Shown here piece by piece: positions 7,690-31,775 of a DNA stretch of 64,000 nucleotides. Under the pieces are notes generated by a model. The model ran no database searches. It was not told where the DNA came from and worked only from the letters and a program-made list of their open reading frames with translations. Where the stretch lies: the NCBI GenBank assembly GCA_028874365.1, contig JAPPJZ010000074.1:17810-81809 (forward strand). The letters are read 5' to 3'. Numbering within the stretch: the stretch's first letter is position 1; the number at the start of each line of letters is the position of its first letter. The stretch is from Chloroflexota bacterium (lineage in GTDB: Bacteria; Chloroflexota; Dehalococcoidia; Bin125). Position numbers and translations under genes: made by a program.

Positions 7690-8787
7690 ATGGCAACACG
7701 CTCTGTCGACCTCCCAGTGCGAAGCACCGTACTTCTGTCAATCCTGTTGCTCGGCGCCGCGCTGCCGATGTCGGCCTGTTCCAACGACGTCACACGCCGC
7801 GATGTCGCGGAGTCATTGACCGAGCTGGTTATTGTGCCTCGCTACGAGACCGCCGCCGGCAGCGCCGAGGCGATGAGTGATCGGATTCGCATTCTGGTCT
7901 CAGACCCGACAGAGGGGCGGCTCGAGGCGGCCCGCGATAGCTGGCGCGAGGCGCGCTCAAACTGGAGCCGCGTACAGGCCTACACCCTTGGCCCGGTAAT
8001 GGAACTGCGCATCCCCTCGTTGGTCGACTGGTGGCCGATTGATGAGAGCAAGATCAACGAGGCGCTTACCCGGCCGGAGATTTCCGCAGATGATGTTCGC
8101 GAGACATTCGCCGCCGACCAGCGCGGATTCAGCGCACTGGAACATCTTCTCTTTGCGGACGGTGATGGCGTGCTCAGTCGGCTCCAGGCGGGCGACGATG
8201 CCTACGGACAGTACGTCAGCGCGTTGGCTACCGTGATCGCCGACGCTGTCAGGCTGGCGGCCAACGACTGGAGCGGCGAGTATGGCGAGTCCTTCTCTGG
8301 CAGCGGCGATCGTGCCATTTCCGAGAACCTCGCCATTGCCGACCTCGTGCGCGTCCCCGTGTTCCTAACAGAAACCGTCGGCGACATGCAACTTGGTGTG
8401 GCGCTCGGCATCACCAAGCCGAAAGCTGATCTCAGTGCGATACCCGAAGGAAATGCCGGCGCCGGAGTGGACGACCTGGCACAGTATGTGCACGGCATCC
8501 AGGACACGTATCTCGGGGACACTGACGGCCTGGGCATCTCGGATCTGATTGCCCAACTGTCTGAAGACGCCGACCAACGGATGCGCGATGCGCTCACGGA
8601 CGCGATCGACGCCATCGAGTCGCTGAGGGGTAACAGCCAACCGCTCAGGCAGGTGATTGAGACCGATCCCGACGCAGTTGCCAGGACCCGCGACGCGATC
8701 AAAGCCGTCCAGATTGTGCTGAACACTGAGATTGTGAGCCTGCTCGGCGTCACAATTGGCTTCAGCGACAACGATGGCGACAGCTAA
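7690..8787 (+). CDS. Second imelysin-like lipoprotein
   Basis: A 365-residue paralogue of the imelysin two genes upstream. A signal peptide ends in a lipobox-like PMSAC. The conserved helical face is present (WWPIDESKINEAL), but the canonical GxHxxE is replaced by GFSALEHLLF, which keeps only the Glu and shifts the His. This is the divergent second imelysin common in imelysin-DUF1111-imelysin operons. A shared ligand with the first imelysin, presumably iron or an iron complex, is inferred from context. Confidence 0.82.
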   Translation: MATRSVDLPVRSTVLLSILLLGAALPMSACSNDVTRRDVAESLTELVIVPRYETAAGSAEAMSDRIRILVSDPTEGRLEAARDSWREARSNWSRVQAYTLGPVMELRIPSLVDWWPIDESKINEALTRPEISADDVRETFAADQRGFSALEHLLFADGDGVLSRLQAGDDAYGQYVSALATVIADAVRLAANDWSGEYGESFSGSGDRAISENLAIADLVRVPVFLTETVGDMQLGVALGITKPKADLSAIPEGNAGAGVDDLAQYVHGIQDTYLGDTDGLGISDLIAQLSEDADQRMRDALTDAIDAIESLRGNSQPLRQVIETDPDAVARTRDAIKAVQIVLNTEIVSLLGVTIGFSDNDGDS

Positions 8788-8807
8788 CGCGGCAGGCGCA
8801 GGATCAA

Positions 8808-10226
8808 ATGCGGATGGCGCTGACTGATCTTCCATCGACAGGCTTCGCGCGAGGACCCCGTCTCGGGACGCTTGACCTGTGGCGGCCGATCGACGTTCTC
8901 CATCGTCGCGGATCGGAGCCCGTGGATGCGACGTCGATCGCCGTGTTCCGGATCGCGTTCGGGATTGTGGCGTTGGTCGCGATCATCAGGTTCTTCGCTT
9001 ACGGCTGGATCGACCAGCTCTACGTCGACCCGCTGCACCATTTCTCATACGTTGGCTTCGAGTGGGTCCGGGCTTGGTCTGCGCCATGGATGCATCTCCA
9101 CTTTGCCGCGCTGGGCGCACTCTCGATCGCGATCATCCTTGGCTGGCGCACAAGAGCATCGCTATTGCTGTTCGCTGTGGGATTCACCTACATCGAGCTG
9201 ATTGACAAGACGACCTACCTCAACCACTACTACTTCATCTCGTTGGCGGCGTTGCTGCTCGCGTTCATCCCTCACGACCGTGCCTGGTCCCTCGATGCTC
9301 GGCGTGGGAGTGGTACCGGCTGGACGCCGGCCTGGACCGTCTGGGCACTGCGAATCCAGATCGCTCTGGTGTATTGCTTTGCCGGCTTTGCCAAGCTCAA
9401 TCACGACTGGATCGTCAATGCCGCCCCGTTGCGCTTTTGGCTTCCGCAACACGCACACCTACCAATCGTCGGACCGCTGCTCGACGAGCTATGCGTCGCC
9501 TACGCGTTGAGCTGGGCGGGGGCCGCCTTCGACCTCACGATCGTCGCCTGGATGCTCTGGGGTCGGTCCCGACCGCTCGCCTTCGCTGTGCTGATCGTCT
9601 TCCACCTGGTCACCGGCCAACTCTTTTTGATCGGCGTGTTCCCGTACATGATGATCGCCGCGTCACTGATCTTCTTCGGGCCAGGCTGGCCTCGGCGTCT
9701 CGTCTCCCGAATCCGACATCAGCCGGCGACGCCGAGCGATCCGCCCGCACCGGGTCTGAGATCGCAGGTGCCGTCGACGTTAGGCCGACTTGCCGTGCTC
9801 GTTGCGATAGCGGTGCTCATCGTGCAGATCGTGGTCCCGCTCCGCCACCACTTCTACCCGGGACCGGTGCAATGGAACGAGGAGGGCTACCGGTTCTCCT
9901 GGCGGGTCCTGCTCACGGAGAAAGTCGGCCACATCGAGTACAGAGTCACAGATGCTCAAGGTCGCAGTTGGCTGGAGCTGCCGGCCGCATACCTCAGTCC
10001 GCTCCAGGCCGAGCGCATGACGACCCAGCCAGACCTCATCCTGGCGACCGCGCACATCATCCGCGAATATCACGCCCGACGGGGCAGGCAGGTCACAGTT
10101 CGGGCCGACGCACTCGTCAGCCTCAACGGACGTGCCGGCCAGCGCCTCATCGACCCGGACGTCGATCTCGCCACCGAGACGCCGGGCATCACCCCAAAGC
10201 ACTGGATCCTCCGGCCGCCGGACTGA
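8808..10226 (+). CDS. HTTM-domain membrane protein (vitamin K-dependent gamma-carboxylase-like)
   Basis: A 472-residue polytopic protein with the HTTM (horizontally transferred transmembrane) domain: SIAVFRIAFGIVALV at the start, then the hallmark TTYLNHYYFISLAALLLAFIP, and several more helices. The C-terminal region has the YPGPVQWNEEGYRFSWRVLL block shared with bacterial relatives of vitamin K-dependent gamma-carboxylase. It follows the second imelysin by 20 bases and is probably cotranscribed with it. Bacterial HTTM proteins have no settled function; association with imelysin and di-haem proteins points to iron or cell-envelope redox chemistry. Confidence 0.85.
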   Translation: MRMALTDLPSTGFARGPRLGTLDLWRPIDVLHRRGSEPVDATSIAVFRIAFGIVALVAIIRFFAYGWIDQLYVDPLHHFSYVGFEWVRAWSAPWMHLHFAALGALSIAIILGWRTRASLLLFAVGFTYIELIDKTTYLNHYYFISLAALLLAFIPHDRAWSLDARRGSGTGWTPAWTVWALRIQIALVYCFAGFAKLNHDWIVNAAPLRFWLPQHAHLPIVGPLLDELCVAYALSWAGAAFDLTIVAWMLWGRSRPLAFAVLIVFHLVTGQLFLIGVFPYMMIAASLIFFGPGWPRRLVSRIRHQPATPSDPPAPGLRSQVPSTLGRLAVLVAIAVLIVQIVVPLRHHFYPGPVQWNEEGYRFSWRVLLTEKVGHIEYRVTDAQGRSWLELPAAYLSPLQAERMTTQPDLILATAHIIREYHARRGRQVTVRADALVSLNGRAGQRLIDPDVDLATETPGITPKHWILRPPD

Positions 10227-16671: not shown

Positions 16672-16881
16672 CGATAGCCCCGTGGGTTCGATGGCGCAGT
16701 CTAGGCCTGGCAGGGAGGCGATGCAATCGGTGCGGGCGCCATGGGCAGACCGTACGTTGTCCTGGCCCACGCTGAGATGCGAACAGCCGTGGTTCGCAGC
16801 GCCGCCGGACGTGCAATCGTGTCCGGTCCCGTCAGACCTGTTGGTTTAGCATGGTCCCAACTCAATCGAGGGGGCACACGG

Positions 16882-17913
16882 GTGAGCCGTTTCTTCGCCA
16901 GACGATCGAGTGGCCGCTCGGTCGGAGATTTGGCCGCTGACGAGGTGAAGCCCACGGTTGACGACTACTCGGAACTCTTTGACGAGAGCGCCGAGCAGCG
17001 CAAAGAGCGCTATCACACGGTTGTCAATCACTATTACAACCTGGCGACCGACTTTTATGAGTTTGGCTGGGGCCGGTCGTTTCACTTTGCCCCTCGGAGG
17101 CGAGGCGAGAGCTTGAGCGCTTCCTTGCTGAGGCACGAACTGTTCCTCGCCGCGCGGCTGTCGATGACCTCCGGAATGCAAGTGCTCGATGTGGGCTGCG
17201 GGGTCGGCGGACCGATGGCCAACCTGGCCCGTCACACCGGCGCGAGCTTCGTGGGGATCAATCTCAACGCTTACCAGCTCGAGCGAGCGAAACAGTACAC
17301 GAGCGATCTTGGGTCGCAGTGCCGCTTCATCCACGGCGACTTCATGCAGGTTCCAGAGGCCGATGGCCAGTTCGATGCCGCGATGAACATCGAAGCCATT
17401 GCGCACGCACCGGACAAGACCGGGGTGTTCAGAGAGGTCTTCCGCGTTCTTCGTCCGGGTGGTGGATTCGCGGGCTACGACTGGTGTTTGACTGACTCGT
17501 TTGATCCAGCGAACGAGGACCACATGCGGATTAAGAACGACATCATGAAGGGGAACGGGCTTCCAGATATCGCGCACACGTCGGAGATCAGCTCGGCGTT
17601 GCTGGCAGCGGGCTTTGAGCTGTTAGAGACCCGCGATCTCGCCCTCGAGTCAGATCCGGAGACTCCCTGGTATCGCCCATTGCAGGGTCGGGACCTGAAC
17701 CTGACGAGCCTTCCGCGAACGCCGATCGGTCGAGCCGTCACGAATCTGGCTCTGGGAGTGGGGGAGAAGTTGCGGATCGTGCCGGAAGGCGCTCAAGAGA
17801 TCAGCAGCGCACTGAACGCCGGCGCGGACGCGCTGGTTGACGGTGGGATCACCGGTGTGTTCACGCCGATGTTCTACTACCTGGCGCGTAAGCCCCTTGC
17901 CAGCGAAGACTAG
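16882..17913 (+). CDS. Sterol C-24 methyltransferase (ERG6/SMT type)
   Basis: A 343-residue SAM-dependent methyltransferase with all ERG6/SMT regions in order. Sterol-binding region I is at about 50-70 (HYYNLATDFYEFGWGRSFHF). The SAM-binding loop is LDVGCGVGGP at 102-111. Region III is NIEAIAHAPD at 169-178 and region IV is YDWCLTD at 199-205. The C-terminal SMT domain closes with GVFTPMFYYLARKP. It adds a methyl group from SAM to the C-24 side-chain double bond of sterols. The GTG at 16882 is used because GAGGGGG lies just upstream and the conserved region follows; the track start 141 bases earlier adds an unconserved leader. The gene converges on the sterol operon with a 27-base gap. Confidence 0.93.
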   Translation: MSRFFARRSSGRSVGDLAADEVKPTVDDYSELFDESAEQRKERYHTVVNHYYNLATDFYEFGWGRSFHFAPRRRGESLSASLLRHELFLAARLSMTSGMQVLDVGCGVGGPMANLARHTGASFVGINLNAYQLERAKQYTSDLGSQCRFIHGDFMQVPEADGQFDAAMNIEAIAHAPDKTGVFREVFRVLRPGGGFAGYDWCLTDSFDPANEDHMRIKNDIMKGNGLPDIAHTSEISSALLAAGFELLETRDLALESDPETPWYRPLQGRDLNLTSLPRTPIGRAVTNLALGVGEKLRIVPEGAQEISSALNAGADALVDGGITGVFTPMFYYLARKPLASED

Positions 17914-17940: not shown

Positions 17941-20900
17941 TTAGCCGCTGCGGGTCTGGCGTCGCTCCTCGTAGAGTCCGAGCGCGTGCAAGGGGAAGTA
18001 CTGGCGATAGAGGACGTAATCCAGCAACGCCGTGCGGAAGAAGACGCCGGCCATGTCTTGCCGGGGCCACGTCCCATCCGGGCACTGCCGATCGATCAAG
18101 AAGCGAATGCCCCGAGTGATCGCCTTCCAGTCGGCATCCCCCGCCTCGAGAAGGGCGATCAACGCCCAGGCGGTGTGGATGACCTGGCTCTCGTCGTGGG
18201 CTACGTATTGCCCGGTCATGCAGCCGCTGTGGTGCTCGCCCCAGCCTCCGTCATCGCGCTGGCGATCCAGCAGCCACTGGCAGGCCGAACGTAGCGCGGG
18301 ATCGTTCGGCTCAGCGCCTCCGGCGATCAGCCCCCGGATCCCGAAGAACGTGCCGTAGATGTACTGCACGCCCCAGACCCCGCGCCATGATCCGTCGTTC
18401 GCCTGCGTCCGGCGCAGCGAGGCGTCAGCCCGCTCCATCGCGCGCTCCGCTCTTCGATCGATGACTTTCGGGGAATGCTCCCGGCAGGCCGCGAGCGCTG
18501 CGAGGCAGGAAGCCGTGCATTCGACATAAGAATGCTCCGTCATCGACTCGCCGAACATTTCGGCGGGGTTGATTCGTTCGAGGTCGAAGCGAGACCGCTG
18601 CGACTCATAACTACCGAACCCACCGTCGCGATTCTGACCTCGCAACATGAATTGAACCGCGTCGCGCAGCTCGCTCGGACTGACCGATGAGGGATCCGCG
18701 GCGATGATCCCGAGCGCTGCTTCAGCCGTACAGTCGGACACCGGCCAGCCATGCCATTGGGCAGCGAAGCACCAGCCTCCCTTTGGATCGTTGCGGTAGG
18801 CCTCGCGAAAGCCTGGGAAGCTGGTATCGATTTGCTGCTGCTGGAGGTAGACGGTCCCACGTTGGAGCGCGTCTGTCACCCCTTCCAGTTGCCGCGCCGT
18901 TGCCAGCGCCTGCAACGCGAATCCGGTGTCCCACGAGGCGCTTCTGGCGCCGGTCATGCGTGCGCCGCGGTCATCGTCTTCCCAGAACCAGAGGTCGGCC
19001 TGCTCAAGCGCTCGCCGACAGTCGGCGTCGTCGGGATCTTGTAGCCACAGGGCCAGGATGTTCAGCAGGCCGCTGACCGGCGAAATGCTGGTGTGATCCG
19101 TCGTCTTTAGTTCCCACTTGATTTGCTCGATCAGTGCGTCGACTGACTTGGCCCGGAGGCGCTTGCTGTGGAATCGTTCCACGAGCTGCGTCCCGCGATA
19201 CAGACCTCGGAGCCACGCCGTTGGTTGTGCGAACAGATCCGCCTGACGCAAGCGACCACGACTAGCGGGGAAATCGACGCTCTCGAACCCCTGTGGGAAC
19301 AGTTCTTCGCGCAATGACGCGATCAACGGAGTGACGGGCGTTTGGAATCGGCGTGCATAGATCGCCGCCATGGCCATGTAGATCAGCCGCGTGTGGCAGT
19401 ACCAGTTGGAGGGATGGAGCGGTAGACGGCGCGGGAGGCTCCAAAGTTCGGGCAGGACGGGGTGCAATCCGCTCCAGTCGTAGAGATTGAGCAACGCCAG
19501 CCAGAACTTGCCCCAGCTTGGGATGCCGAGCGTTCCTTCCTCATGCAAGAATCGGCGCGCCGGCTCGAGCAGCCGATCGTCCCGTTCCACGCCGAGCAAT
19601 CGTGCTGCGATGTAGACAAGGGTGGTCACGAACAGATGCGGCGCCGAGTGATCGTGGAGGCCCCACTGCCCCTCCGGCAGCCGAGATTGCTCGAAGTAAC
19701 GAAGCAAGCGTCGCCGCCGCTCGGGCTCGATGGGCCGCCCGATGATGTGCTGCAGCAGTACCCACTGCGCCGTGATCATCGGGCACCAAACCATTTCGCC
19801 TTCCCAGCCGCCGTCCTCGCCCTGGAGGTTCAGCAGAGGCGCGGTCGCTCGCTGAAGCGCTGGACCGGCATCTGGCAAGACAGTCTCGGTCTGGCGCGGC
19901 TCGTCGGTTTGAGCCGAGACCGATGACCCCGATGGCATCGAAGTCAAGAAAGCGCGGGCCAGTGCTTCAGTGGGGCGCTCATTCCCTGTTCCGCCCGCAC
20001 GTCGGACGTTGTACAAGTGCCAGGCGGCTCGTAATAGCCAAGCAAGACGATTACTCAGCCCACGAGCGACGTCACGATACCGGCGCCAGGCCAACCGGTT
20101 GAGTGACTTCGGCACCGTTGCCCTGAGCGCCCACAGCACCGTTGTGGTGAACTCCCGGCTCAAGCTTCGTATCGAGGTGTCTTCACAGCCCAGCAGCCGC
20201 ATCGTGCGGCCGCGCACTCCCGAACTGGCCCGCCAGCGACTGTACATCGCCTCCCGAAGTGCGGCGCCTTCGGCCCGCGGATCGGCGAAGACCTCGTAGA
20301 GTCCCATCGCCAGGAGTTCCGGAACTCGCGTCGCCTCGAACCGATGGTTTCTGAAGTCGCTGAATTCTTCGCCTTCGGCCAACGCGAAGGCATCGCCGAA
20401 CCCAAGCGTGATCCCGGTAGCGGTCAACGGGTGGTAGTGTCCTGCGGCATCGCCGATCAGCACTCGGCGCGAGGTTCCATACGTTAGGCGCGGGCTAATC
20501 ACATTGGCGGCCGCGTGAATCCCCTGCTCGGACCAGGCTTCGATGAAGGCGGAGCGGAGCGTCTCCGGCATCCAGCGGGCATACGAGTCCGAGAGCAGGC
20601 CCTCCCACTCATGAGGGGAGTGATCAAGCGGGATATCGATGACCGCTCGAACACGATCCTCGCTCAGGCGATAAATGAGCATCGGACCGGGCGCGCCGCT
20701 GACGACGTGCCCGTAGCCTTCGAAGGGCAAGCTCACTCCCTTCAGCGTCAGCCCGATCATCCTCGAACAGGTCCTCGTTTGCGTGGCCAAACCTAACGAT
20801 CGCCGAACGACGGAGGAACGCCCGTCGGCGCCAACGATTCTCTCAGCGAGAACGGTGCTGCTCACGCCGTCCTGCGTGAACGTGATTCGTCCGTCTTCCA

Positions 20901-21297
20901 CCGTGCGCACGCGGGCATGAAGCAACAGGTCGATAGCCGGATCGTCGCCGGCTACCTGGCGCAGATGCGAAACAAGAGCCGCGTGTTCGCACACCAAACT
21001 GCGCGATCCATCGGAGTACGGGAGTAAGATCGGCTCCTGACCGTCTTCTGGAAGCACGGCGAATCCTTCGCCCGAGTTGCTTGGCACCTCTCCCGCGACT
21101 GAAATGCCGAGTTCATTCAGGACTTGCACCGCGGGAGGATGCAACCACTCACCGGCCAGTCGTTTGGCCGCAGAAGGATTCGCCTCAAAAAGCGCGACCC
21201 GATAGCCCTTCCGCGCATGAGCGATTGCGCAGACGCATCCGACCGGTCCGGCACCGACGATTGCTACGTCGTAGCGTCGTTCAGTCGCGCCGATCAC
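17941..21297 (-). CDS. Squalene monooxygenase-oxidosqualene cyclase fusion protein
   Basis: A 1118-residue two-enzyme polypeptide. Residues 1-350 form an FAD monooxygenase: Rossmann GAGPVG (15-20), GEWLHPP as in squalene epoxidases (GELLQP), GADGRSSVVR, and GDAAGHYHPLTATG, the squalene-epoxidase-type second FAD motif. A basic helical linker of about 120 residues follows. Residues about 475-1105 form a complete triterpene cyclase with several QW repeats (QNRDGGFGSYES, GGWGEH), the catalytic SDCTAE at 854-859 typical of oxidosqualene cyclases, GTFFGIRGL, and the end FPLHALGLYEER. It should convert squalene to oxidosqualene and cyclise it to a protosterol. The GTG at 21297 overlaps the cyp51 stop (GTGA); the track ATG at 21435 lies inside cyp51. 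No frameshift or linker stop is seen. Confidence 0.93.
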   Translation of the reverse strand: MIGATERRYDVAIVGAGPVGCVCAIAHARKGYRVALFEANPSAAKRLAGEWLHPPAVQVLNELGISVAGEVPSNSGEGFAVLPEDGQEPILLPYSDGSRSLVCEHAALVSHLRQVAGDDPAIDLLLHARVRTVEDGRITFTQDGVSSTVLAERIVGADGRSSVVRRSLGLATQTRTCSRMIGLTLKGVSLPFEGYGHVVSGAPGPMLIYRLSEDRVRAVIDIPLDHSPHEWEGLLSDSYARWMPETLRSAFIEAWSEQGIHAAANVISPRLTYGTSRRVLIGDAAGHYHPLTATGITLGFGDAFALAEGEEFSDFRNHRFEATRVPELLAMGLYEVFADPRAEGAALREAMYSRWRASSGVRGRTMRLLGCEDTSIRSLSREFTTTVLWALRATVPKSLNRLAWRRYRDVARGLSNRLAWLLRAAWHLYNVRRAGGTGNERPTEALARAFLTSMPSGSSVSAQTDEPRQTETVLPDAGPALQRATAPLLNLQGEDGGWEGEMVWCPMITAQWVLLQHIIGRPIEPERRRRLLRYFEQSRLPEGQWGLHDHSAPHLFVTTLVYIAARLLGVERDDRLLEPARRFLHEEGTLGIPSWGKFWLALLNLYDWSGLHPVLPELWSLPRRLPLHPSNWYCHTRLIYMAMAAIYARRFQTPVTPLIASLREELFPQGFESVDFPASRGRLRQADLFAQPTAWLRGLYRGTQLVERFHSKRLRAKSVDALIEQIKWELKTTDHTSISPVSGLLNILALWLQDPDDADCRRALEQADLWFWEDDDRGARMTGARSASWDTGFALQALATARQLEGVTDALQRGTVYLQQQQIDTSFPGFREAYRNDPKGGWCFAAQWHGWPVSDCTAEAALGIIAADPSSVSPSELRDAVQFMLRGQNRDGGFGSYESQRSRFDLERINPAEMFGESMTEHSYVECTASCLAALAACREHSPKVIDRRAERAMERADASLRRTQANDGSWRGVWGVQYIYGTFFGIRGLIAGGAEPNDPALRSACQWLLDRQRDDGGWGEHHSGCMTGQYVAHDESQVIHTAWALIALLEAGDADWKAITRGIRFLIDRQCPDGTWPRQDMAGVFFRTALLDYVLYRQYFPLHALGLYEERRQTRSG

Positions 21298-22682
21298 CTG
21301 AAGACTCTGCCCTGCGCTCTGCGCCGATAGCGGAGCCGGCAGGGTGTCACGGGGCCAGTCACCCAGCTCCCGTAGTTCGGCGTGGGGAAGTTCGTCTCGA
21401 GACTGAAGTCGAACCGGTCGAGCAGCACAGTCCAAATCGCCTTGACCTGCATCTCGGCAAAGTGCTTGCCCATGCAGCGATGCTTGCCGCCGCCGAAACC
21501 GATCAAGCTGTAGTGGTGCTGTTTGTCCTCACGAGCCGGCGGGGCGAAGCGATCCGGATCGAACCGGTCCGGGTCGGCGAACAGATGAGGCAGCCGGTGC
21601 GACACCGCCGGCGACACCATGGCCAGGCTGCCCGAGGGCACGACATAGTCCCCGTAGCGCATCGGGTTGAGCACCTTGCGGATGAGGAGGATCAGGGGCG
21701 GGTGGAGCCGCTCGCACTCACGCACGGCGTGCTCCATGGTCACCTGTTGCTTCAGGCCGTTGAGGCTCATGCTCGCGGTTTCGCCGTAGATGGCCTTCGT
21801 CTCGTCTCTGACCCGAGCCAGATATTGGGACGCTCGTACGAGTTCCAGACCGGTCCAGGTCGCGAGCACCGCGCTGGTGTGCTGACCGGCGAACAACACG
21901 GTCAACAGAATCCCGGTGATTTCGTCATCACTCAGCGCGCGTCCGTCGCTGTAGCTGGCATCCATGAGCGACTGCATGAAGTCGTCAGGACGATCGACGG
22001 CGCGCCGTCGCGCCGTCATGATCCGGCTGAAGAGATCGGCCACCTGCACGCGTGCCCGGTCGCGGCTGCGATGCGCAGGGGTGGGCAGCCTGGGCAGAAA
22101 GAAGCCGAGCGTGTTGATGCCCTTTTGCAGATCGTGATACGCGTCGGCGAAGCCCGCATCGACCTGATCCCGAACCTCCTGCCCGATCAAACTGCGACTG
22201 GCGATCTTCACGGTTAGCTGGTTCATCGCGGTTGGCAGATCCAGCTCACCTTCGTCGCCAAGCGAGTCGGCCAATTGCGAGGTCTCATCGAACATGATTT
22301 GAGCGAAGCGCTGCATCGCCGCTTCCCTGAGCGCCGGATAGAGGAAGCCGAGCTGTTCGTCCATAATTTGGGGAGCAACGTCGTAGGCCACCCCTTGTCC
22401 GAAGATCGGGACCGTGAATTGATAGACGGCCTTCGCGTTGAGTTGGTCCTCTGGCGCGCCAAAGAATGCGTCGTGAGCTTCGGGTCCAGTGAACAGCACA
22501 AACTGACGTGGGCCCAGTCGGAATCGGTACAGATCGCCCAGGTCGCGCCAGCCTCGGCTCAGCATGGCGACCGGGTCGCGCTGGAATTGCCACAGGTGCC
22601 CGATCAGCGGCAGCCCGCCATCCAGCTCGGGAATCGTCCGATGCTCCTCGGATGTCGTCAGTACGCCAGGCAGTTCAGTCAT
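21294..22682 (-). CDS. cyp51: Sterol 14-alpha-demethylase, cytochrome P450 CYP51
   Basis: A 462-residue P450 with CYP51 hallmarks. The B-prime motif reads YQFTVPIFGQGVAYD (87-101), the I helix has AGQHTS (265-270), where CYP51 carries His in place of the acid found in most P450s, ExxR is ECER (322-325), and the haem loop GFGGGKHRCMG holds ligand Cys403. There is no N-terminal membrane helix, as in other bacterial CYP51s. It removes the C-14 methyl of lanosterol-type sterols, leaving a delta-14 bond for the ERG24-like reductase encoded upstream. The start is the ATG at 22682; the track ORF extends another 180 codons into non-homologous sequence. Its stop overlaps the start of the fusion gene. 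Confidence 0.96.
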   Translation of the reverse strand: MTELPGVLTTSEEHRTIPELDGGLPLIGHLWQFQRDPVAMLSRGWRDLGDLYRFRLGPRQFVLFTGPEAHDAFFGAPEDQLNAKAVYQFTVPIFGQGVAYDVAPQIMDEQLGFLYPALREAAMQRFAQIMFDETSQLADSLGDEGELDLPTAMNQLTVKIASRSLIGQEVRDQVDAGFADAYHDLQKGINTLGFFLPRLPTPAHRSRDRARVQVADLFSRIMTARRRAVDRPDDFMQSLMDASYSDGRALSDDEITGILLTVLFAGQHTSAVLATWTGLELVRASQYLARVRDETKAIYGETASMSLNGLKQQVTMEHAVRECERLHPPLILLIRKVLNPMRYGDYVVPSGSLAMVSPAVSHRLPHLFADPDRFDPDRFAPPAREDKQHHYSLIGFGGGKHRCMGKHFAEMQVKAIWTVLLDRFDFSLETNFPTPNYGSWVTGPVTPCRLRYRRRAQGRVFR

Positions 22683-22714: not shown

Positions 22715-23812
22715 CTAGTAGACACGGGGAATCAATGCGTATGGCACTCTTCGGGTATAGCGTTCCCACAGGGCACCATACTTGGCACGACATCGGCGAT
22801 CGTCGCGCCTTGCCCGATGCCACAGCAGCGCCGTCAGCCATACCGGCAACGCATAGGGTATCCAAGACGAGAACGCTGTCGTGAGCGCAAACGCAAAGTA
22901 CACGCAGATCTCGCCCGAGTAGTTCAGGTGTCGCCCCACACCCCAAAATCCGGACACCAGCAGTCGCCCGTCGAGCGACTCGGCCTGCCGGCCCCAGATC
23001 GAGGTCTCCGCATTCTGTTTGAAGCGGTGTTTCTGCTCGTTGGCGCCGCGGAACAAGCAGAATCCGATGACAAACAGCAGGCAGAGCGCAGCGCCGGCCA
23101 GAGGCGGGATGGAATCCGTTGTGTCGACCAACCACCAGCCGGCCAGACAGTAGAAGAAAGGCACCAGGACATAGTCGCCCCATGCCAGCATCCAACCGAA
23201 CCGCTCCGAAACGATGTCCCAAGTGTAGATCATGCCGTACTCAAACTGGAAGTAGTTCAACACGTACAATCCGGTGAACACCTGGTAGAGAACCATCTGC
23301 AGCGTGAGTGAACCGTGCGTGTCGTACTGTACAACTGCAAATGACACGTTAAACAGCGCGAGCGCTATGAGAGAAGGTCGGTAGCTGAACAGCTTCAGAT
23401 CAACCCCGAACCAGGAGGGGTTGAGCTGACGGCCAAAGAACACCCCTCGCCACAGTCCCGGCGAATCGCTCTGGCGCCGGGACCCTTGCCAGTACAAGAC
23501 GGCCGACAGAGCCCAGGCAAAGATGTTCGCCACAACGAACAACTCGGCAAAGTGGGTGTGCAGCACCGAGAGCGAGATCAGGTCGAAGACATCGCCGAGC
23601 ACGGCCAGGAGCATGGCGACCAGGAACAGCGCGAGCCCGTTGAGCTTGTAGGTGCGAGTTGCGCCATCCGGGTCAGGCCTGCCGACCACGTGGCGCCCCG
23701 GTAGCCACCTCGAACCCAGCAGCAAGACCCCCACAAACACGAGGAAAATCCCCGTCGCCTCGAGCAAATGTTGACCGGAGAAGGTCGTCCAGGCTGCCGG
23801 GACCTCAGGCAT
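22715..23812 (-). CDS. Sterol reductase, ERG24/ERG4/DHCR7 family (probable delta-14 reductase)
   Basis: A 365-residue polytopic protein of the sterol reductase family, about eight to ten membrane helices. N-terminal LPGRHVVGRP with YKLNGLALFLV and the C-terminal signatures GVGRHLNYSGE and HRARRDDRRCRAKYGALWERY match ERG24, lamin B receptor and DHCR7. The HRxxRDDxRCxxKYG block binds NADPH in family structures. Placement directly before cyp51 makes reduction of the delta-14 bond the best guess; a delta-7 or delta-24(28) reductase cannot be excluded from sequence. It overlaps the end of the Rieske gene by eight bases and precedes cyp51 by 32 bases. Confidence 0.9.
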   Translation of the reverse strand: MPEVPAAWTTFSGQHLLEATGIFLVFVGVLLLGSRWLPGRHVVGRPDPDGATRTYKLNGLALFLVAMLLAVLGDVFDLISLSVLHTHFAELFVVANIFAWALSAVLYWQGSRRQSDSPGLWRGVFFGRQLNPSWFGVDLKLFSYRPSLIALALFNVSFAVVQYDTHGSLTLQMVLYQVFTGLYVLNYFQFEYGMIYTWDIVSERFGWMLAWGDYVLVPFFYCLAGWWLVDTTDSIPPLAGAALCLLFVIGFCLFRGANEQKHRFKQNAETSIWGRQAESLDGRLLVSGFWGVGRHLNYSGEICVYFAFALTTAFSSWIPYALPVWLTALLWHRARRDDRRCRAKYGALWERYTRRVPYALIPRVY

Positions 23813-24914
23813 CGACCGAGTTCGCGGCAGCCTCGCGGTCCAGGTGTTCCTGCCACTTGCGGACGGTCACTTGCTGGAACGAGCGGACCACCGGATTGAC
23901 CTCGATCGGCGGAGCCTCCCAGTTGTTCTCATAGCCGGTTTGCTCGGCTTCCACCGCCCAGCGATCCTGGGAGAGCAAGGGGCCGATCAACATCCGGTTG
24001 GCGAGCCGCAAGACGGTGGTCATGGCCCAGCGCGGGATGCGGATCGGCAGCAGGGGGAGCTTGAGCGACCTGAAGTAGAAGAGGAAAAACGTGCGCGTTG
24101 TCCGCTCATCGACCGGTAGCACGAAGAGCCAGTGCTTGATTTCGTCATCGGTGTTCGATCGCTGGTAGGGATACTCGTAGCAGAGTTCCATGTGGTTGGT
24201 GTTGAGACGATTGTGGTCGACGAATTTGCCGGAGATGCGTCCACGACCTACTCGCGTTTCGTAGGCGAGGTGCACGTCGTCCCCGATGGTCTCGTGACGC
24301 GTGAGGGTCGCGCCGTCGAACGGACGATACTGACGATGCAGATAGGCGTGGGAGAAATCGCTCACGTTGTCGATGATGATCGAATGGTGGGCCGAGAGGT
24401 CGAATCGCAGCGGTACGCAGGCCCATCGACCGGGCCCTTCGAGCTCGGGGATCTCCGGGATCTGGCGCTCTGAGGCCTTGGACGGATCGCCCGGGAAGAT
24501 CCAGACCAGCCCGTAGCGGACCTGGACGGGATATGAGCGCACCGACAGTCGCGGAACCTGCTTGCGCCCAAACAGATCGGGGATCTCAGCCACGCGGCCG
24601 TCCTCGTCGTACTCCCAGCCGTGGTAGCCGCAGACGAGCCGACACCCCTCGACCTCGCCGAGCGAGAGCTTGATCTGGCGGTGCAAACACCGATTCTCGA
24701 CCGCGTGGAACGATCGATCCTCGGACCGAAACAGCGCGATCGATTGCTTCCAGAACACCACCTCGGTCACCGTTCCGGGCTTGATCCTTCGTACCTCCTC
24801 GACTGCGTACCAGTAATCAGGATTCATCCCCACGGAGCGCGCACGCTGGCGCAGGTTGTCGGCATGCGCGAACCCCGGAGGTCCGACCGATGGCGACCCG
24901 ATCTCGACGCTCAT
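23805..24914 (-). CDS. Rieske non-haem iron oxygenase, candidate sterol C-4 demethylase (SdmA-like)
   Basis: A 369-residue Rieske oxygenase. The [2Fe-2S] site is CLHRQ (Cys76, His78) and CGYHGW (Cys95, His98). The mononuclear iron site fits the D-x2-H-x3-H pattern in DNVSDFSHAYLH (Asp186, His189, His193). In bacteria with characterised sterol synthesis, C-4 methyl oxidation is done by a Rieske oxygenase (SdmA) working with an NAD(P)-dependent dehydrogenase (SdmB). The same pair of families sits here at the head of the sterol operon. The assignment is therefore family plus context. No ferredoxin or reductase gene is nearby, so electron donors must be encoded elsewhere. Confidence 0.75.
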   Translation of the reverse strand: MSVEIGSPSVGPPGFAHADNLRQRARSVGMNPDYWYAVEEVRRIKPGTVTEVVFWKQSIALFRSEDRSFHAVENRCLHRQIKLSLGEVEGCRLVCGYHGWEYDEDGRVAEIPDLFGRKQVPRLSVRSYPVQVRYGLVWIFPGDPSKASERQIPEIPELEGPGRWACVPLRFDLSAHHSIIIDNVSDFSHAYLHRQYRPFDGATLTRHETIGDDVHLAYETRVGRGRISGKFVDHNRLNTNHMELCYEYPYQRSNTDDEIKHWLFVLPVDERTTRTFFLFYFRSLKLPLLPIRIPRWAMTTVLRLANRMLIGPLLSQDRWAVEAEQTGYENNWEAPPIEVNPVVRSFQQVTVRKWQEHLDREAAANSVDA

Positions 24915-24972: not shown

Positions 24973-26067
24973 TTAACCGCCCACCGGCGCGGTCGATTCG
25001 GGGCGCTTTGCTCGTCGATTCGTGATTGCGTTTCGCTCATAGTGGAACGCGTAGGCGTCCTCCACTGCGCTACGGATCGTCGATGGTTGGAAGCCAAGCT
25101 CCTCCTTCGCTTTGCTGGTGTCCGCGTGACGACACTGCTGCAGCAGGCGGATCGCGCCGGGTGTGAAGCGCTGCGGATAGCTCGGCCAGAAACGGCTGAG
25201 AGCGTAGCTCGCGACCTCCGAGAACGGCAGCATCAGGCCGAGCGGTATCTGCCGGCGTGGTCGCTTGACCCCCGAGACCGCCTGGAAGTGATCCAGCATG
25301 TCCGAGATCGTCTGATACTCGGAACTGAAGATGTACTTCTGTCCCGATCGACCGCGCTCCATGCTGAGCATGTGGCCCTGAACGATGTCCTCTGCGGCGA
25401 CGAACTCGAACCCGCCATCAACGTAAGCGTGGAGCTTGCCGTTAGCGAAGTCGCACAGTGTCCTCCCCATTCGCGAGGGGAAGAAGTCGTTGCCCCCAAC
25501 GACCGCGCAGGACGTGGCCACGACGACCTCCTGACCACCCGCGGCCGCATGCCAGCATTCGGTCTCGACCATCGCCTTGCTGCGCTCGTAAGGCATGGTG
25601 CGTTCCATCGGATAGAACGGCATCGATTCCCTGGTTGGAGTGGATGTGTCGTCGAGGTCGTAGCCGACGGCGCTGAACGAGCCCGTCACCACGACCTTCC
25701 CGGCCTCCATCTCGCGCGCCGCTTGGAGCACGTTGCGGGTGCCAACCACGTTGGATTCGAAGACGTCCCTTCGATGAGCGCCGTTCCCGTCGATGGTCGA
25801 AACGAGGGCAGCCACGTGAAAGACGCCGTGGCAGCCGGCCAGCGCCTCGCGGGTCGCATCCAGGTCTCGAACATCGCCGTAGACCCGCTCGACATCGAGC
25901 CCCTCGATGGCTTCGTTGTTGTCGTCCTGTCTCAGCAACACGCGGACGCGAACGCCGTCATCGAGCAATCGGCGTACCAGATTGGCGCCGACATGCCCGG
26001 CGGCGCCCGTCAGGAACACTGGCGGCGACGATGTGCCGGAGTGATGTTCGGGTGACTGCGAAGCCAT
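24973..26067 (-). CDS. Extended SDR / 3-beta-hydroxysteroid dehydrogenase-like (candidate SdmB)
   Basis: A 364-residue extended short-chain dehydrogenase with NAD(P)-binding TGAAGHVG (20-27) and catalytic YERSK (Tyr160, Lys164). The family includes NSDHL-type 3-beta-hydroxysteroid 4-decarboxylating dehydrogenases, bacterial SdmB and hopanoid-associated HpnA. As first gene of the sterol operon, next to a Rieske oxygenase, it is the likely decarboxylating/ketone-forming partner in C-4 demethylation. The start ATG at 26067 has GGGAG four bases upstream. HpnA-like sugar epimerase function is the alternative; no hopanoid genes are present here. Confidence 0.72.
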   Translation of the reverse strand: MASQSPEHHSGTSSPPVFLTGAAGHVGANLVRRLLDDGVRVRVLLRQDDNNEAIEGLDVERVYGDVRDLDATREALAGCHGVFHVAALVSTIDGNGAHRRDVFESNVVGTRNVLQAAREMEAGKVVVTGSFSAVGYDLDDTSTPTRESMPFYPMERTMPYERSKAMVETECWHAAAGGQEVVVATSCAVVGGNDFFPSRMGRTLCDFANGKLHAYVDGGFEFVAAEDIVQGHMLSMERGRSGQKYIFSSEYQTISDMLDHFQAVSGVKRPRRQIPLGLMLPFSEVASYALSRFWPSYPQRFTPGAIRLLQQCRHADTSKAKEELGFQPSTIRSAVEDAYAFHYERNAITNRRAKRPESTAPVGG

Positions 26068-26249
26068 GTAGCTCCCACATTACGCATTTGGCAGCCGGCT
26101 TGGAGGATGAGGCAACGTTAATCGGTGCCCCTTAGAGGTGCAAGATTGCTTGACACTCGACGCGTCGGTCACGGGGGCGTCGCTATGATGCACATCTGGT
26201 CTGTCCAGGCGCGTCGGTTCGATCTGTGCAGCGAGGGAAGTCAACGGGT

Positions 26250-26960
26250 TTGAGCAGGGCGAGCGAGCGAACAGGCGGATGGGGTGCCCCAGCGGGTTTG
26301 CTCGCGGTGCTGGCGATCGCGCTGCTGGCGTTGCCCGGGATGGGCGCCCGCTACTGGCTGCATGGCGAGCTCGACGCATTGCATTGCCTGTTCAGCCTGT
26401 TCTTCTCGATCAATCTCGTGATCTGTTGGTGGGAGATGTGCCTGTATCTCCGAAGGGACTACATCGAGACGCGCCTGGAGCATTGGCGTCAATGGCAAAG
26501 CGAGAGCGGACGCACCCCGGCGGTGGAATTTCTGACCGCCCGGGTGCCATTGAACCGAATCCACTCGCCGACCGTCTGGGCGGATGTCTGGGCGACATAT
26601 TCGATGTTCGATTCGGCATATGCGGATCGCAACACGTACGGGTTCAACATCGATATCGCCAATGGATTCACGACGCCGTGGACCACGCTGATTCTGTACG
26701 CGGCTTACACCGGCGGCGTTTTGCCGGCGATTGCCGCGGGCATTCTCGGGGCGATGCTGTTCTGGCAGTGGGTCTACGCATCGTCGCTCTACCTCGTCAG
26801 TTTTTTCGTGGGACAGAAGCGCAGCCGTCTCACGACTCGCCAGTTCTATGCGTACATCGTCGGGCCGAACGCGATTTGGATAATGATCCCGATGGTGGGT
26901 CTGTACCTCTCCATCCGCCTGATCGTGGACGGCGACTACCGAGTGCTGGGCATCAGCTAG
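26250..26960 (+). CDS. Polytopic membrane protein resembling EBP/EXPERA sterol delta8-delta7 isomerase
   Basis: About 236 residues with four to five membrane helices and length similar to emopamil-binding protein (EBP, 230). The last helix region FYAYIVGPNAIWIMIPM lines up with the EBP segment containing its substrate-site Asn and Trp (N-A-x-W-x-x-x-P), and a central W-x-x-Y-x-x-x-DS-x-Y segment also resembles EBP. The catalytic-region His and Glu of EBP helix 2 are not clearly kept (INLVICWWE). The gene is divergent from the sterol operon. TTG at 26250 is preferred because GAGGGAAG lies nine bases before it; GTG at 26226 is the alternative. An isomerase role is a hypothesis. Confidence 0.45.
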   Translation: MSRASERTGGWGAPAGLLAVLAIALLALPGMGARYWLHGELDALHCLFSLFFSINLVICWWEMCLYLRRDYIETRLEHWRQWQSESGRTPAVEFLTARVPLNRIHSPTVWADVWATYSMFDSAYADRNTYGFNIDIANGFTTPWTTLILYAAYTGGVLPAIAAGILGAMLFWQWVYASSLYLVSFFVGQKRSRLTTRQFYAYIVGPNAIWIMIPMVGLYLSIRLIVDGDYRVLGIS

Positions 26961-27031
26961 CGCCCGATGCATGACGGCCGGTGACGTCGAGCTATGCTCC
27001 GCCGTGATCGAATGTGCGAGGGGACAACGGC

Positions 27032-28078
27032 ATGAGCCGGATCGCCGACGTGCGGACCACCATTCTCGACTCGACGCCTCTCACGCAGGTGTTTGTCACA
27101 GTGACGGACGGCGACGGACGCACGGGGCTCGGCGAGACTTGGTGGGGCATCCCCGACCCGGAGCGACCGGGCGCAGGCGGGCGCCCGATCGCGGGCGTGG
27201 TCAACGAGTTGTTGGCGCCGAGGGTCCTCGGTCGCGAAGCCGGCGAGATCGGACGACTGTGGTTCGAGTTGTGGGACTACGGATATCGCTATGCCGACCA
27301 GGGCATCTTCCCGATGGCCCTGTCCGGCCTCGACATCGCGCTGTGGGACCTGCTGGGCAAGAGGTTGGATGCGTCCGTGTTGCAACTGCTCGGCGGTTCC
27401 CGGCATGACGCCGTGCCCGCCTACGCGAGTCTGCCGCCGCTGCGCGATCCTGAACTGGTCGTGAGCGAGACCCAGCGCGCCATCGACGCGGGTATCGGCG
27501 CGGTGAAGCTGCACGAGCTCACGATCGACCACGTTGAGCGCCTGCGCCGGCGTTTCGGCGAGGGGCTGGCGATCATGGTCGACGTCAACGGTCATTTCGA
27601 CCCGCTCGAGGCGACCGCGTTCGGTCGCAGGCTCGCCGATCTCGGGGCGACCTGGTTTGAGGAACCGGTCCGGCCCATGCGCGATCACCGAGCGATGGAC
27701 CGGGTGCGCCGGGAGTCAGGCGTCGACATCGCCGCGGGTGAAAATGAGTACACGCTGGAGGATTTCGAGCGGTTGCTGCGCTCTCAGGCGATCACCTACC
27801 TCCAGCCCGAGGTGACGAAGATCGGTGGCATCACCGCCGCCCAGCGTGTGGCAACGCTCGCTGAACTTCACAACGTGGCGCTCAGCCCACACAACTTCCG
27901 TCCGGGTCCGTCCCTCTACGCCTCCCTCGCTTATGGGTTTGCGTGCTCGGCAACCCGGTGGTTCGAGATCCCCTGGGTTCCGGAAGACCGCCGCTTCGCC
28001 TCCGACATGCCGTTGCCCGAGATCGAGGATGGGCACGTACTTGCACCGAAGGGCTCCGGCCTCGCTATACCGCTGTAG
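27032..28078 (+). CDS. Mandelate racemase/muconate lactonizing enzyme (enolase superfamily)
   Basis: A 348-residue member of the mandelate-racemase-like enolase superfamily, which abstracts a proton alpha to a carboxylate. An N-terminal capping domain is followed by a TIM barrel with three metal ligands in order: Asp in VDVNG, Glu in FEEP, Glu in AGENEY. A catalytic His candidate lies in LSPHNF. The usual KxK on strand 2 reads KLHE, so the second Lys is His, which may change the substrate or reaction. ATG at 27032 has GAGGGG upstream. Most likely an acid-sugar dehydratase; the substrate is unknown and a link to sterols is not evident. Confidence 0.82.
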   Translation: MSRIADVRTTILDSTPLTQVFVTVTDGDGRTGLGETWWGIPDPERPGAGGRPIAGVVNELLAPRVLGREAGEIGRLWFELWDYGYRYADQGIFPMALSGLDIALWDLLGKRLDASVLQLLGGSRHDAVPAYASLPPLRDPELVVSETQRAIDAGIGAVKLHELTIDHVERLRRRFGEGLAIMVDVNGHFDPLEATAFGRRLADLGATWFEEPVRPMRDHRAMDRVRRESGVDIAAGENEYTLEDFERLLRSQAITYLQPEVTKIGGITAAQRVATLAELHNVALSPHNFRPGPSLYASLAYGFACSATRWFEIPWVPEDRRFASDMPLPEIEDGHVLAPKGSGLAIPL

Positions 28079-29328: not shown

Positions 29329-30687
29329 CTATGCCTCGCGGAAATTGCGACCGTGGAGGATGCTGCCGTAGTGATTGAACCAGCGCTTTGCCTCGGGGTC
29401 GTCGAAGGGGTAATCCGCGCCGAGCTGCCTCGCAACGCTCAGCCCGGTCACGAAGCAGGTCTCCTGGCTGTTGATCAGCGTGTGCGCTCCACAGTGCCAT
29501 GTGCCCCGCCTGCCCTGGATGAAGCGGAAGAGGTTGACCAGGAGCACCACGTGTTTCACATCATGCACGACGTGTTGAAACCAGCCTCGGTGAATGACCT
29601 TCTGTTCCTCGATCGCGCTGATCGGGTTGTAGGTCACCAGGCATGGCCGTTCGGAGCCGTTCGCCCAGGGCTGCTGGTTGTGCATGATGTAGGTGATCTC
29701 ATAGTTGTCGGGCCGTGCGCCGTACTGCTCGATGTGATTGCTGCGGGTCTCCAGAGGCTTCACGTCGTTGTCCGGCAGGACAGACGCGTCCCAGTGCACG
29801 ATCGCGTGGTTGTGTAACTCGCTCTCGTAGCGAACTGACGACAACAGATAGCGCTCCAAGTAGCTCGGCCGGTCCAGCATCATCAGGGTCTGATTCGCGT
29901 TGCAGGCGAAGATCACGTCGTCGTAGGTCTCCTGGACTCCTGCCTCGTCCTCGATCACCACGCCGGCCTTGCGCCGGTACACCTTGCGCACGGCGCGATT
30001 CAGATCAATGCGGTCCGCGAAATCGGCGGACAGGCAGTCGTAGATTCGTCGCGTGCCCTGGTCCCAGGTCTGCATCGGCGTAGCCGACTCGATGTTGAAG
30101 AACTCGAGGTAGCGCGAGAACAAGGCAGCCGGCATGTCGAACACGTTCGTCGCCATCAGAAAGTTCACGAACATCGGCTTCAGGATCTTGTACCTGAAGC
30201 CGCCCGAGAATCCGCCCAGATTGAGCAGCGTGCCCATGCTGATGTAGTTGAATGGGTTGAGCGCGTTGAGCAGCTTCGAGCGTGACCGTGTCAAGGCGCC
30301 GAAGAGGTGCAAGAGCTGGAGCAGGCGCTGAAACCTCGCAATCTCGTCCTGCAACTCCGCCCGAATCTCGGAATCGAAGTCGTGGGCGTACACGTCGCCG
30401 CGGTAGCGCACGCTGTAGTTGAACTTCGTATCCAGCAGGTCGATTTGGAAGCGTCTCAACAGCAGTTGGATGTGGTGATAGACCGACGGGATGCAGGCAG
30501 TGACAGAGATGTCGAACGGTATCAGGCTGCCGTCTGCCTGCGGCATGTCGACGGTCACCGCATTGCCACCGAGCCGATCGTTGGCTTCGAACACGCGGAT
30601 TTCAAACCGGTCGGGGTGCTGATGCAGCGCCCAGGCAGCGCCGAGGCCCGCGACCCCGCCGCCGACGATTGCTACGCGGCGCGGCAT
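29329..30687 (-). CDS. FAD-dependent amine-oxidase-like oxidoreductase (COG2907 type)
   Basis: A 452-residue flavoprotein with an N-terminal dinucleotide fold (VAIVGGGVAGLGAAWAL) and FEANDRLGGN after strand 2. A PFDISVTACIPSVYHHIQ segment and a later CNANQTLMML flavin-side segment resemble the COG2907 predicted NAD/FAD-binding family, related to phytoene desaturase and amine oxidase. It starts two bases after the Rieske oxygenase gene, so the two are one transcript. Desaturation or oxidation of a lipid or terpenoid would fit both family and context. The start is ATG 30687; the long track ORF upstream is the Rieske gene in a shadow frame. Confidence 0.78.
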   Translation of the reverse strand: MPRRVAIVGGGVAGLGAAWALHQHPDRFEIRVFEANDRLGGNAVTVDMPQADGSLIPFDISVTACIPSVYHHIQLLLRRFQIDLLDTKFNYSVRYRGDVYAHDFDSEIRAELQDEIARFQRLLQLLHLFGALTRSRSKLLNALNPFNYISMGTLLNLGGFSGGFRYKILKPMFVNFLMATNVFDMPAALFSRYLEFFNIESATPMQTWDQGTRRIYDCLSADFADRIDLNRAVRKVYRRKAGVVIEDEAGVQETYDDVIFACNANQTLMMLDRPSYLERYLLSSVRYESELHNHAIVHWDASVLPDNDVKPLETRSNHIEQYGARPDNYEITYIMHNQQPWANGSERPCLVTYNPISAIEEQKVIHRGWFQHVVHDVKHVVLLVNLFRFIQGRRGTWHCGAHTLINSQETCFVTGLSVARQLGADYPFDDPEAKRWFNHYGSILHGRNFREA

Positions 30688-30689
30688 GT

Positions 30690-31775
30690 CTAGGGTCCTG
30701 CCAGACGTGCCGCGGTCCGCTGTTCCGTCGGCAACTGCAGCACGTCCTCCTGAGCGGAATAGAACTGCCGGCAATAGCCGCGATAGGTCATGATTTCGCC
30801 GTCGGAGCGGCAGAGGCGGGGCCTCGGCTGATACCGCTTGCGGCTCCAGATCACAACGTCCTGCTGCACGTCTACCTTCTGAAACGCTCCGAAGATCCTG
30901 TTCATTAGCGGCGCGCGCAGTCGGGTGGGCAGGAATCTCAAGCCGATGATCGGTCGTTGCGGATGTCGCATCTCGCCGATCTGCCCGGCGAGCGTCAGGT
31001 CGAGCAGTCTGCCGTCGACCGGCGTCGCAAGCACCCACAGGCGGAAATCCATGCCAATCGAGTGTTCTCGACCTTCAACGAACGAGTAACCCAAACCGAA
31101 CGCGCCAGCCCGGGCGCTGGCATTCAACGTGACGCTGCCCAACCCAGCGATTGACTGCGTTCTGCTGAAGTCGAACTGACTCTCCAGGCGCGGCCCGTCG
31201 ACCAAGACTGGGTAGTCGCCGTTGACGTTGTCGTAGCCGTGGACGTAGCGCAGGTGTGCAATGTCGACGGCGTTTTCGGTGGTCTCCTGAGGGTGGCCAG
31301 GGAACCGCATGGTGCGGAAACCGATGCTGCTCCACCCGGTCTGATCAGGTACCTCAGCCGGCAGCTGCCATTGCGGTTCTCTTCCGGCAATGCCCCACCA
31401 GGCAAAGATCATTCCGCAGATTTCCCGGGTCGGAAACGTCCTCAGTCTTGCCGAGCGCGGCGGTGCCGCGAATGGTGTAGCCACGCACTGGCCAGCCACG
31501 TCGAACTCATAGCCGTGGAACGGACAGACCAGCCGGCCGTCGCACACGCGACCGCCGGTATCGGGTCCCAGGTACGAGCCGAGGTGCGGACAGTAGGCCT
31601 CGGCGACACAGACGGCGCCAGCCTCGTCGCACCAGACGACGACATCCTCGCCCATCCACGTCTTCTCGATAATGTCGGCGTCGCGCACCTCCTGGATGGT
31701 CGCCACGAAGTACCAACCCTCGGGGAACGGGGAGGGCAACAGAGAGCTTCCGCCATCAACCATTCGCTGCGCCAC
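30690..31775 (-). CDS. Rieske oxygenase resembling DAF36/Neverland and KshA steroid oxygenases
   Basis: A 361-residue Rieske oxygenase, distinct from the one in the sterol operon. Its cluster motif is CPHLG (Cys62, His64) and CPFHGYEF (Cys84, His87). The mononuclear iron site is ENAVDIAHLRYVHG. The CPFHGYEFD with a GxCxxxPF segment and PQETTENAVD are as in cholesterol 7-desaturases (DAF36/Neverland) and 3-ketosteroid 9-hydroxylase KshA. It forms an operon with the FAD oxidoreductase and is divergent from the GPP34-P450 gene. Sterol ring modification, for example a 7-desaturation, is inferred and not shown. Confidence 0.72.
   Translation of the reverse strand: MAQRMVDGGSSLLPSPFPEGWYFVATIQEVRDADIIEKTWMGEDVVVWCDEAGAVCVAEAYCPHLGSYLGPDTGGRVCDGRLVCPFHGYEFDVAGQCVATPFAAPPRSARLRTFPTREICGMIFAWWGIAGREPQWQLPAEVPDQTGWSSIGFRTMRFPGHPQETTENAVDIAHLRYVHGYDNVNGDYPVLVDGPRLESQFDFSRTQSIAGLGSVTLNASARAGAFGLGYSFVEGREHSIGMDFRLWVLATPVDGRLLDLTLAGQIGEMRHPQRPIIGLRFLPTRLRAPLMNRIFGAFQKVDVQQDVVIWSRKRYQPRPRLCRSDGEIMTYRGYCRQFYSAQEDVLQLPTEQRTAARLAGP

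Follow-up and report, generated by a model that had tools for sequence, protein, structure and literature searches.

A fusion of squalene epoxidase (SQE) with oxidosqualene cyclase (OSC) was already reported in 2020, when MsbE was described from the msb cluster of a gammaproteobacterial symbiont of Melophlus sarasinorum (PMC7074536). As far as this cluster is covered by the part of the paper available to us, the protein of the window (the whole stretch of 64,000 nucleotides analysed here, from a Chloroflexota bacterium) fits the MsbE type, with SQE N-terminal and OSC C-terminal in one frame and a cluster that contains SdmAB, ERG24, CYP51 and a sterol C-24 methyltransferase (SMT); the host phylum of MsbE differs, and the likeness rests on architecture, not on sequence identity. 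‘Fused SMO/OSC homologs’ were also mentioned by Brown et al. in 2023 (PMC10070321), in a Methods remark that their N-termini were trimmed before the OSC tree. These homologs have the same domain architecture as the window protein and were met in a study of sterol clusters with SMTs and sdmAB from sponge and other metagenomes; the accessible text of that paper held no analysis of the fusion that we could find. Thus the preliminary description of this DNA, which knew of no described natural fusion of the two enzymes, has to be corrected on this point. Moreover, a steroid-gene operon was found in 2022 in 115 Ircinia MAGs from ten phyla including Dehalococcoidia, with horizontal transfer and purifying selection (PMC9531527). 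The core of the Ircinia clusters is ERG24-CYP51-LSS, and the other strand encodes SMT or squalene synthase; the window agrees in the core and in SMT. Their mean core length is 5910 bp compared with 5872 bp in the window. This length fits only if the Ircinia LSS is the fusion; in the available sections of that paper the fusion is not mentioned and SdmAB are left unannotated. Another natural fusion within bacterial sterol synthesis, the CYP51-ferredoxin of Methylococcus (cited in PMC13277303), links an enzyme with its own electron donor, whereas the window fusion joins two successive enzymes. The existence of SQE-OSC fusions is therefore on record, and their biochemistry appears not to be; new here are the comparative anatomy of the fusion family, its nearest unfused relatives (the separate SQE and OSC of Planktothrix) and the co-occurring hopanoid branch.

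The fusion gene lies on the minus strand, a point on which the preliminary description was silent; this strand was read as 1118 codons and a stop with zero internal stops, and the plus strand across the same interval contains many stops. The single uninterrupted frame of the preliminary description, holding a full monooxygenase and a full cyclase, was thus confirmed by the reading and by Pfam and PDB matches, and the motifs it had listed (GAGPVG, GEWLHPP, GDAAGHYHPLT and SDCTAE) are all present. Coordinates are collected in Table 1.

Table 1. Sterol locus of the window and parts of the fusion protein (nucleotide positions in the window)
Feature	Position	Strand	Residues	Remarks
Sterol C-24 methyltransferase	16741..17913	+		Convergent with fusion; Sterol_MT_C, E=1.7e-19
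SQE-OSC fusion gene	17941..21297	-		1118 aa; GTG start at 21297 overlaps CYP51 stop (GTGA)
OSC domain	17968..19866	-	478-1110	Pfam, NCBIfam, PDB, model
Catalytic DCTAE motif	18721..18735	-		D855 = human D455; H849 and V853 nearby
Inter-domain tether	19867..19998	-	434-477	pLDDT <50 at 438-440 and 457-471
SQE domain	19999..21276	-	8-433 (approx.)	Pfam, PDB, model
CYP51 sterol 14alpha-demethylase	21294..22682	-		Start approximate; best matches are solved CYP51 proteins
Delta14-sterol reductase (ERG24 family)	22715..23812	-		Family match
SdmA-like Rieske C4-demethylase	23805..24914	-		394 bits vs curated cut-off 600
SdmB-like reductase	24973..26067	-		294 bits vs curated cut-off 600

For the N-terminal half, Pfam reported FAD_binding_3 at residues 9-307 and Squalene epoxidase at residues 154-390 (E=2e-22; 79.9 bits against a cut-off of 20.1), and the FAD motifs GAGPVG (15-20), GADGR (156-160) and GDAAGHYHP (282-290) are in place. 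Its top PDB match by sequence was human squalene monooxygenase (E=5e-21), and among flavoproteins human SQLE was also the best match to the fold of the AlphaFold model (TM-score 0.80-0.81). Judged by the FAD motifs, the SE domain and its nearest relative, an SQE, this half is a squalene epoxidase. In the C-terminal half SQHop_cyclase_N was matched at residues 482-775 and SQHop_cyclase_C at 786-1110, human lanosterol synthase was the top PDB match by sequence (E=7e-132), and the modelled fold agreed with human OSC at a TM-score of 0.83 (by target). TIGR03463 (2,3-oxidosqualene cyclase) was by far the best curated family, yet its score of 764.7 bits lies below the cut-off of 851. By its sequence the half is an oxidosqualene cyclase of the DCTAE class; a squalene-hopene cyclase identity was ruled out by the DCTAE motif and by tree position, and in the OSC tree all fusions and human LSS were split from 14 SHC-like rows with a support of 100. 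These domain and PDB matches support the earlier assignment of two consecutive steps, SQE and then OSC.

The fusion is the last gene of the operon SdmB-SdmA-Delta14-sterol reductase-CYP51-[SQE-OSC], and this order is kept in 54 of the 64 loci with enough upstream DNA. An FA_hydroxylase-type sterol C5-desaturase was not found in the window genome. Close to the operon, a KshA-like Rieske oxygenase (30690-31775, minus strand; 3-ketosteroid 9alpha-hydroxylase C-terminal domain, 78 bits) lies beside an amine-oxidase-like flavoprotein (29329-31038, minus strand), a pair that is possibly involved in steroid modification. Two minus-strand frames at 26241-27688 are probably antisense artefacts, because they have no family matches and the second is overlapped by a plus-strand MR_MLE enolase (27014-28078). 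On the other side of the locus, at 7690-10226 of the plus strand, a protein of the imelysin-type M75 peptidase family precedes one that resembles an HTTM/vitamin K-dependent gamma-carboxylase.

The preliminary description had placed a basic helical linker at about residues 365-475. In the alignment of 85 fusions the stretch corresponding to residues 361-480 measures 112-123 aa, mostly 117, and is mostly basic with a mean net charge of ∼+8; in the AlphaFold model (mean pLDDT 83.3) helices are present at 376-394 and 401-433, followed by the low-confidence stretches of Table 1. Its basic and helical character was therefore correctly seen, but the extent was not, since an SQE that stands alone is long enough (445 aa in Planktothrix) to include the helices between 376 and 433, and on the model these most likely belong to the epoxidase domain. 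What is left as the true tether is, as modelled, a flexible piece of ∼44 residues, part of it at low confidence. With this flexible tether and a pTM of 0.65, the relative orientation of the domains and active sites is not readable from the model.

To place the fusion among bacteria, relatives were scanned in one genome per species (84,980 species), with bacterial fusions in scope, and the best 80 of 171 stretches were analysed. Each of the 80 matches both halves in an alignment that crosses the junction, mostly over the full length and at 57-91% identity. The preliminary description had held that many homologues already annotated with this architecture would speak against its reading; homologues with the architecture are indeed many, and of that expectation only this part was found. 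Altogether >80 independent assemblies, spread over at least 8 phyla, carry this fusion with hardly any variation at the junction. The phyla named in record titles are Chloroflexota, Nitrospirota, Pseudomonadota, Actinomycetota, Gemmatimonadota, Binatota, Acidobacteriota and Rhodothermota. Many of these assemblies come from studies of sponge symbionts, an origin that is explicit in some titles and was mostly read from bin names. One contig binned as Gemmatimonadetes (L019) carries a fusion that groups with the Chloroflexota ones in the OSC tree, a placement that would reflect either recent transfer or misbinning.

In a sample of 400 Chloroflexota genomes the fusion was confined to the window's own genus, all four representatives of which carry it, and the other matches were cyclases of ∼28-36% identity that by sequence are presumably hopene-type. 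With the centre genome counted, intact fusions numbered 3 among 369 sampled gammaproteobacteria, 2 among 297 genomes on the Bacteroidota/Rhodothermota side, 3 among 199 Acidobacteriota and 3 among 240 alphaproteobacteria.

These data bear on whether a missed stop or a frameshift, in assembly or annotation, made one frame out of two adjacent genes. The window genome (3.1 Mb, 96% complete) is in 82 contigs, one fusion (L054) has an in-frame stop, and genome G583 carries SQE and OSC on separate contigs (L115 and L116), all of which could be read as signs of such an artefact. However, the in-frame junction recurs throughout the independent assemblies, dN/dS of the tether was 0.09-0.17 in four comparisons, indicating purifying selection, and a search of the fusions for a conserved internal start with a ribosome site, from which a free OSC could be made, found none. 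An artefact, for which we see practically no chance, was thus ruled out by the independent assemblies and the selection on the tether, and the missed stop or frameshift in the linker that had been named as fatal to the reading was not seen. The stop in L054 lies in the OSC half, in the region of position 9951; ERG24, SdmA and SdmB were looked for upstream of this fusion and not detected, and this copy may be decaying or may contain a sequencing error.

The catalytic residues of the cyclase that were compared are nearly all invariant in the alignment of 85 fusions: the positions that match D455, C456, C533, H232, Y503, W387 and W581 of human OSC show no change wherever sequence is present. D855 and C856 of the window protein are invariant, and the equivalents of W387, F444, W581 and F696 are conserved. 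At the product-steering positions the fusion has A784/H849/V853 compared with T381/C449/V453 in human lanosterol synthase, and A/H/V is also found in the unfused L107, L108 and Planktothrix enzymes. On sequence grounds the product is most likely lanosterol, which we favour because of V853 and the operon content. A non-sterol triterpenol, for example of the arborane or parkeol type, could be suggested by the A/H/V set and by the S that replaces human I524, but it is improbable: V853 (human V453) is invariant in the fusions, a key valine was what led to MsbE being called a lanosterol cyclase (PMC7074536, as far as available), and the fusion closes an operon whose CYP51, Delta14 reductase and SdmAB work on sterols of the lanosterol type.

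The larger OSC tree unites all fusions and the separate OSC of G583 in a single clade, and in trees with Planktothrix and Streptomyces added, the 30 core rows, every one a fusion and the window among them, form one clade (100). The branching order at the base (L124, L106/L107 plus G583, Planktothrix) is not settled in the OSC and SQE trees, and MsbE is not among the rows. A single fusion event would be the simplest reading of these sequences, with fission in G583 or Planktothrix possible. Tree distances of SQE and OSC over the fusions correlate (r=0.89), hence the two halves travel as a unit. In G583 the OSC locus has no SQE upstream, and in its SdmB-SdmA-ERG24-CYP51-SQE operon the contig stops while the SQE frame is still within the linker; both fission of a fusion and an assembly break are possible.

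The closest named unfused relatives are encoded on a plasmid of Planktothrix agardhii (OSC WP_227398347, 55% identical; SQE WP_227398344, 44% identical), where, unlike in the window, they are separate and divergently placed genes. This triterpenoid cluster (plasmid p2, 3145-15007) lies beside transposases and contains OSC, an SQE-like monooxygenase, squalene synthase and several P450s, and such a plasmid cluster is a possible source or vehicle for these genes. In other unfused neighbours OSC precedes SQE (L108, L109 and the OSC-SQS-SQE order of Streptomyces). A simple read-through of an ancestral SQE-OSC pair was not seen, and because the unfused examples are OSC-first or divergent, the gene order would, judging by them, have had to change for the fusion to arise.

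On a different contig of the window genome, two squalene/phytoene-synthase-type genes adjoin another cyclase, which shares 30% identity with the OSC half and by sequence is presumably hopene-type. From their pairing and position the two genes are probably HpnC/HpnD-like and a candidate squalene source, and with the second cyclase beside them the cell probably runs hopanoid and sterol branches from squalene. We consider it very probable, judging from sequence, that the fusion serves bacterial sterol synthesis as a bifunctional enzyme. Squalene, probably supplied by the HpnC/HpnD-like pair, would be epoxidised to 2,3-oxidosqualene by the N-terminal flavoprotein, and the C-terminal cyclase would fold this into a tetracyclic sterol precursor; CYP51 would then remove the 14-methyl, the Delta14 bond would be reduced, SdmAB would remove the C4 methyl(s), and SMT may alkylate C24. 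The fusion would fix a 1:1 stoichiometry and hold both membrane-facing active sites on the same membrane patch.

What this arrangement brings to the cell can be explained in several ways. Squalene-hopene cyclases can accept oxidosqualene, and the fusion might channel it directly, as the preliminary description had proposed, and shield it from the same cell's own enzyme. The second cyclase of the window genome and those in 6 of 10 other fusion genomes are consistent with this, but 4 of the 10 show none and, on the model, the flexible tether forms no tunnel by itself, leaving direct channelling a tentative and rather doubtful proposal. That the fusion was selected as such a device to keep oxidosqualene from the hopanoid cyclase, and helped the sterol operon to spread among symbionts of many phyla, we regard as unlikely. 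The fusion could also be a frozen accident, neutral or with only the regulatory benefit of fixed stoichiometry, which spread with the operon. Fusion and operon move together, and separate genes suffice in the unfused relatives (Planktothrix, Streptomyces, G545); on the other hand, the junction is kept at near-constant length across many phyla and only one possible fission, that in G583, was seen. A frozen accident is a serious candidate, to which we give slightly less than an even chance.

For the family, the bifunctional reading means that one natural polypeptide would lead from squalene to the first sterol, which would serve engineering and tests of channelling with a very hydrophobic intermediate. 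The fusion is also a marker of a sterol operon that symbionts of many phyla have in common, and this operon bears on whether bacteria contribute to the sponge sterols that are used as animal biomarkers, a matter raised in the available part of PMC10070321.
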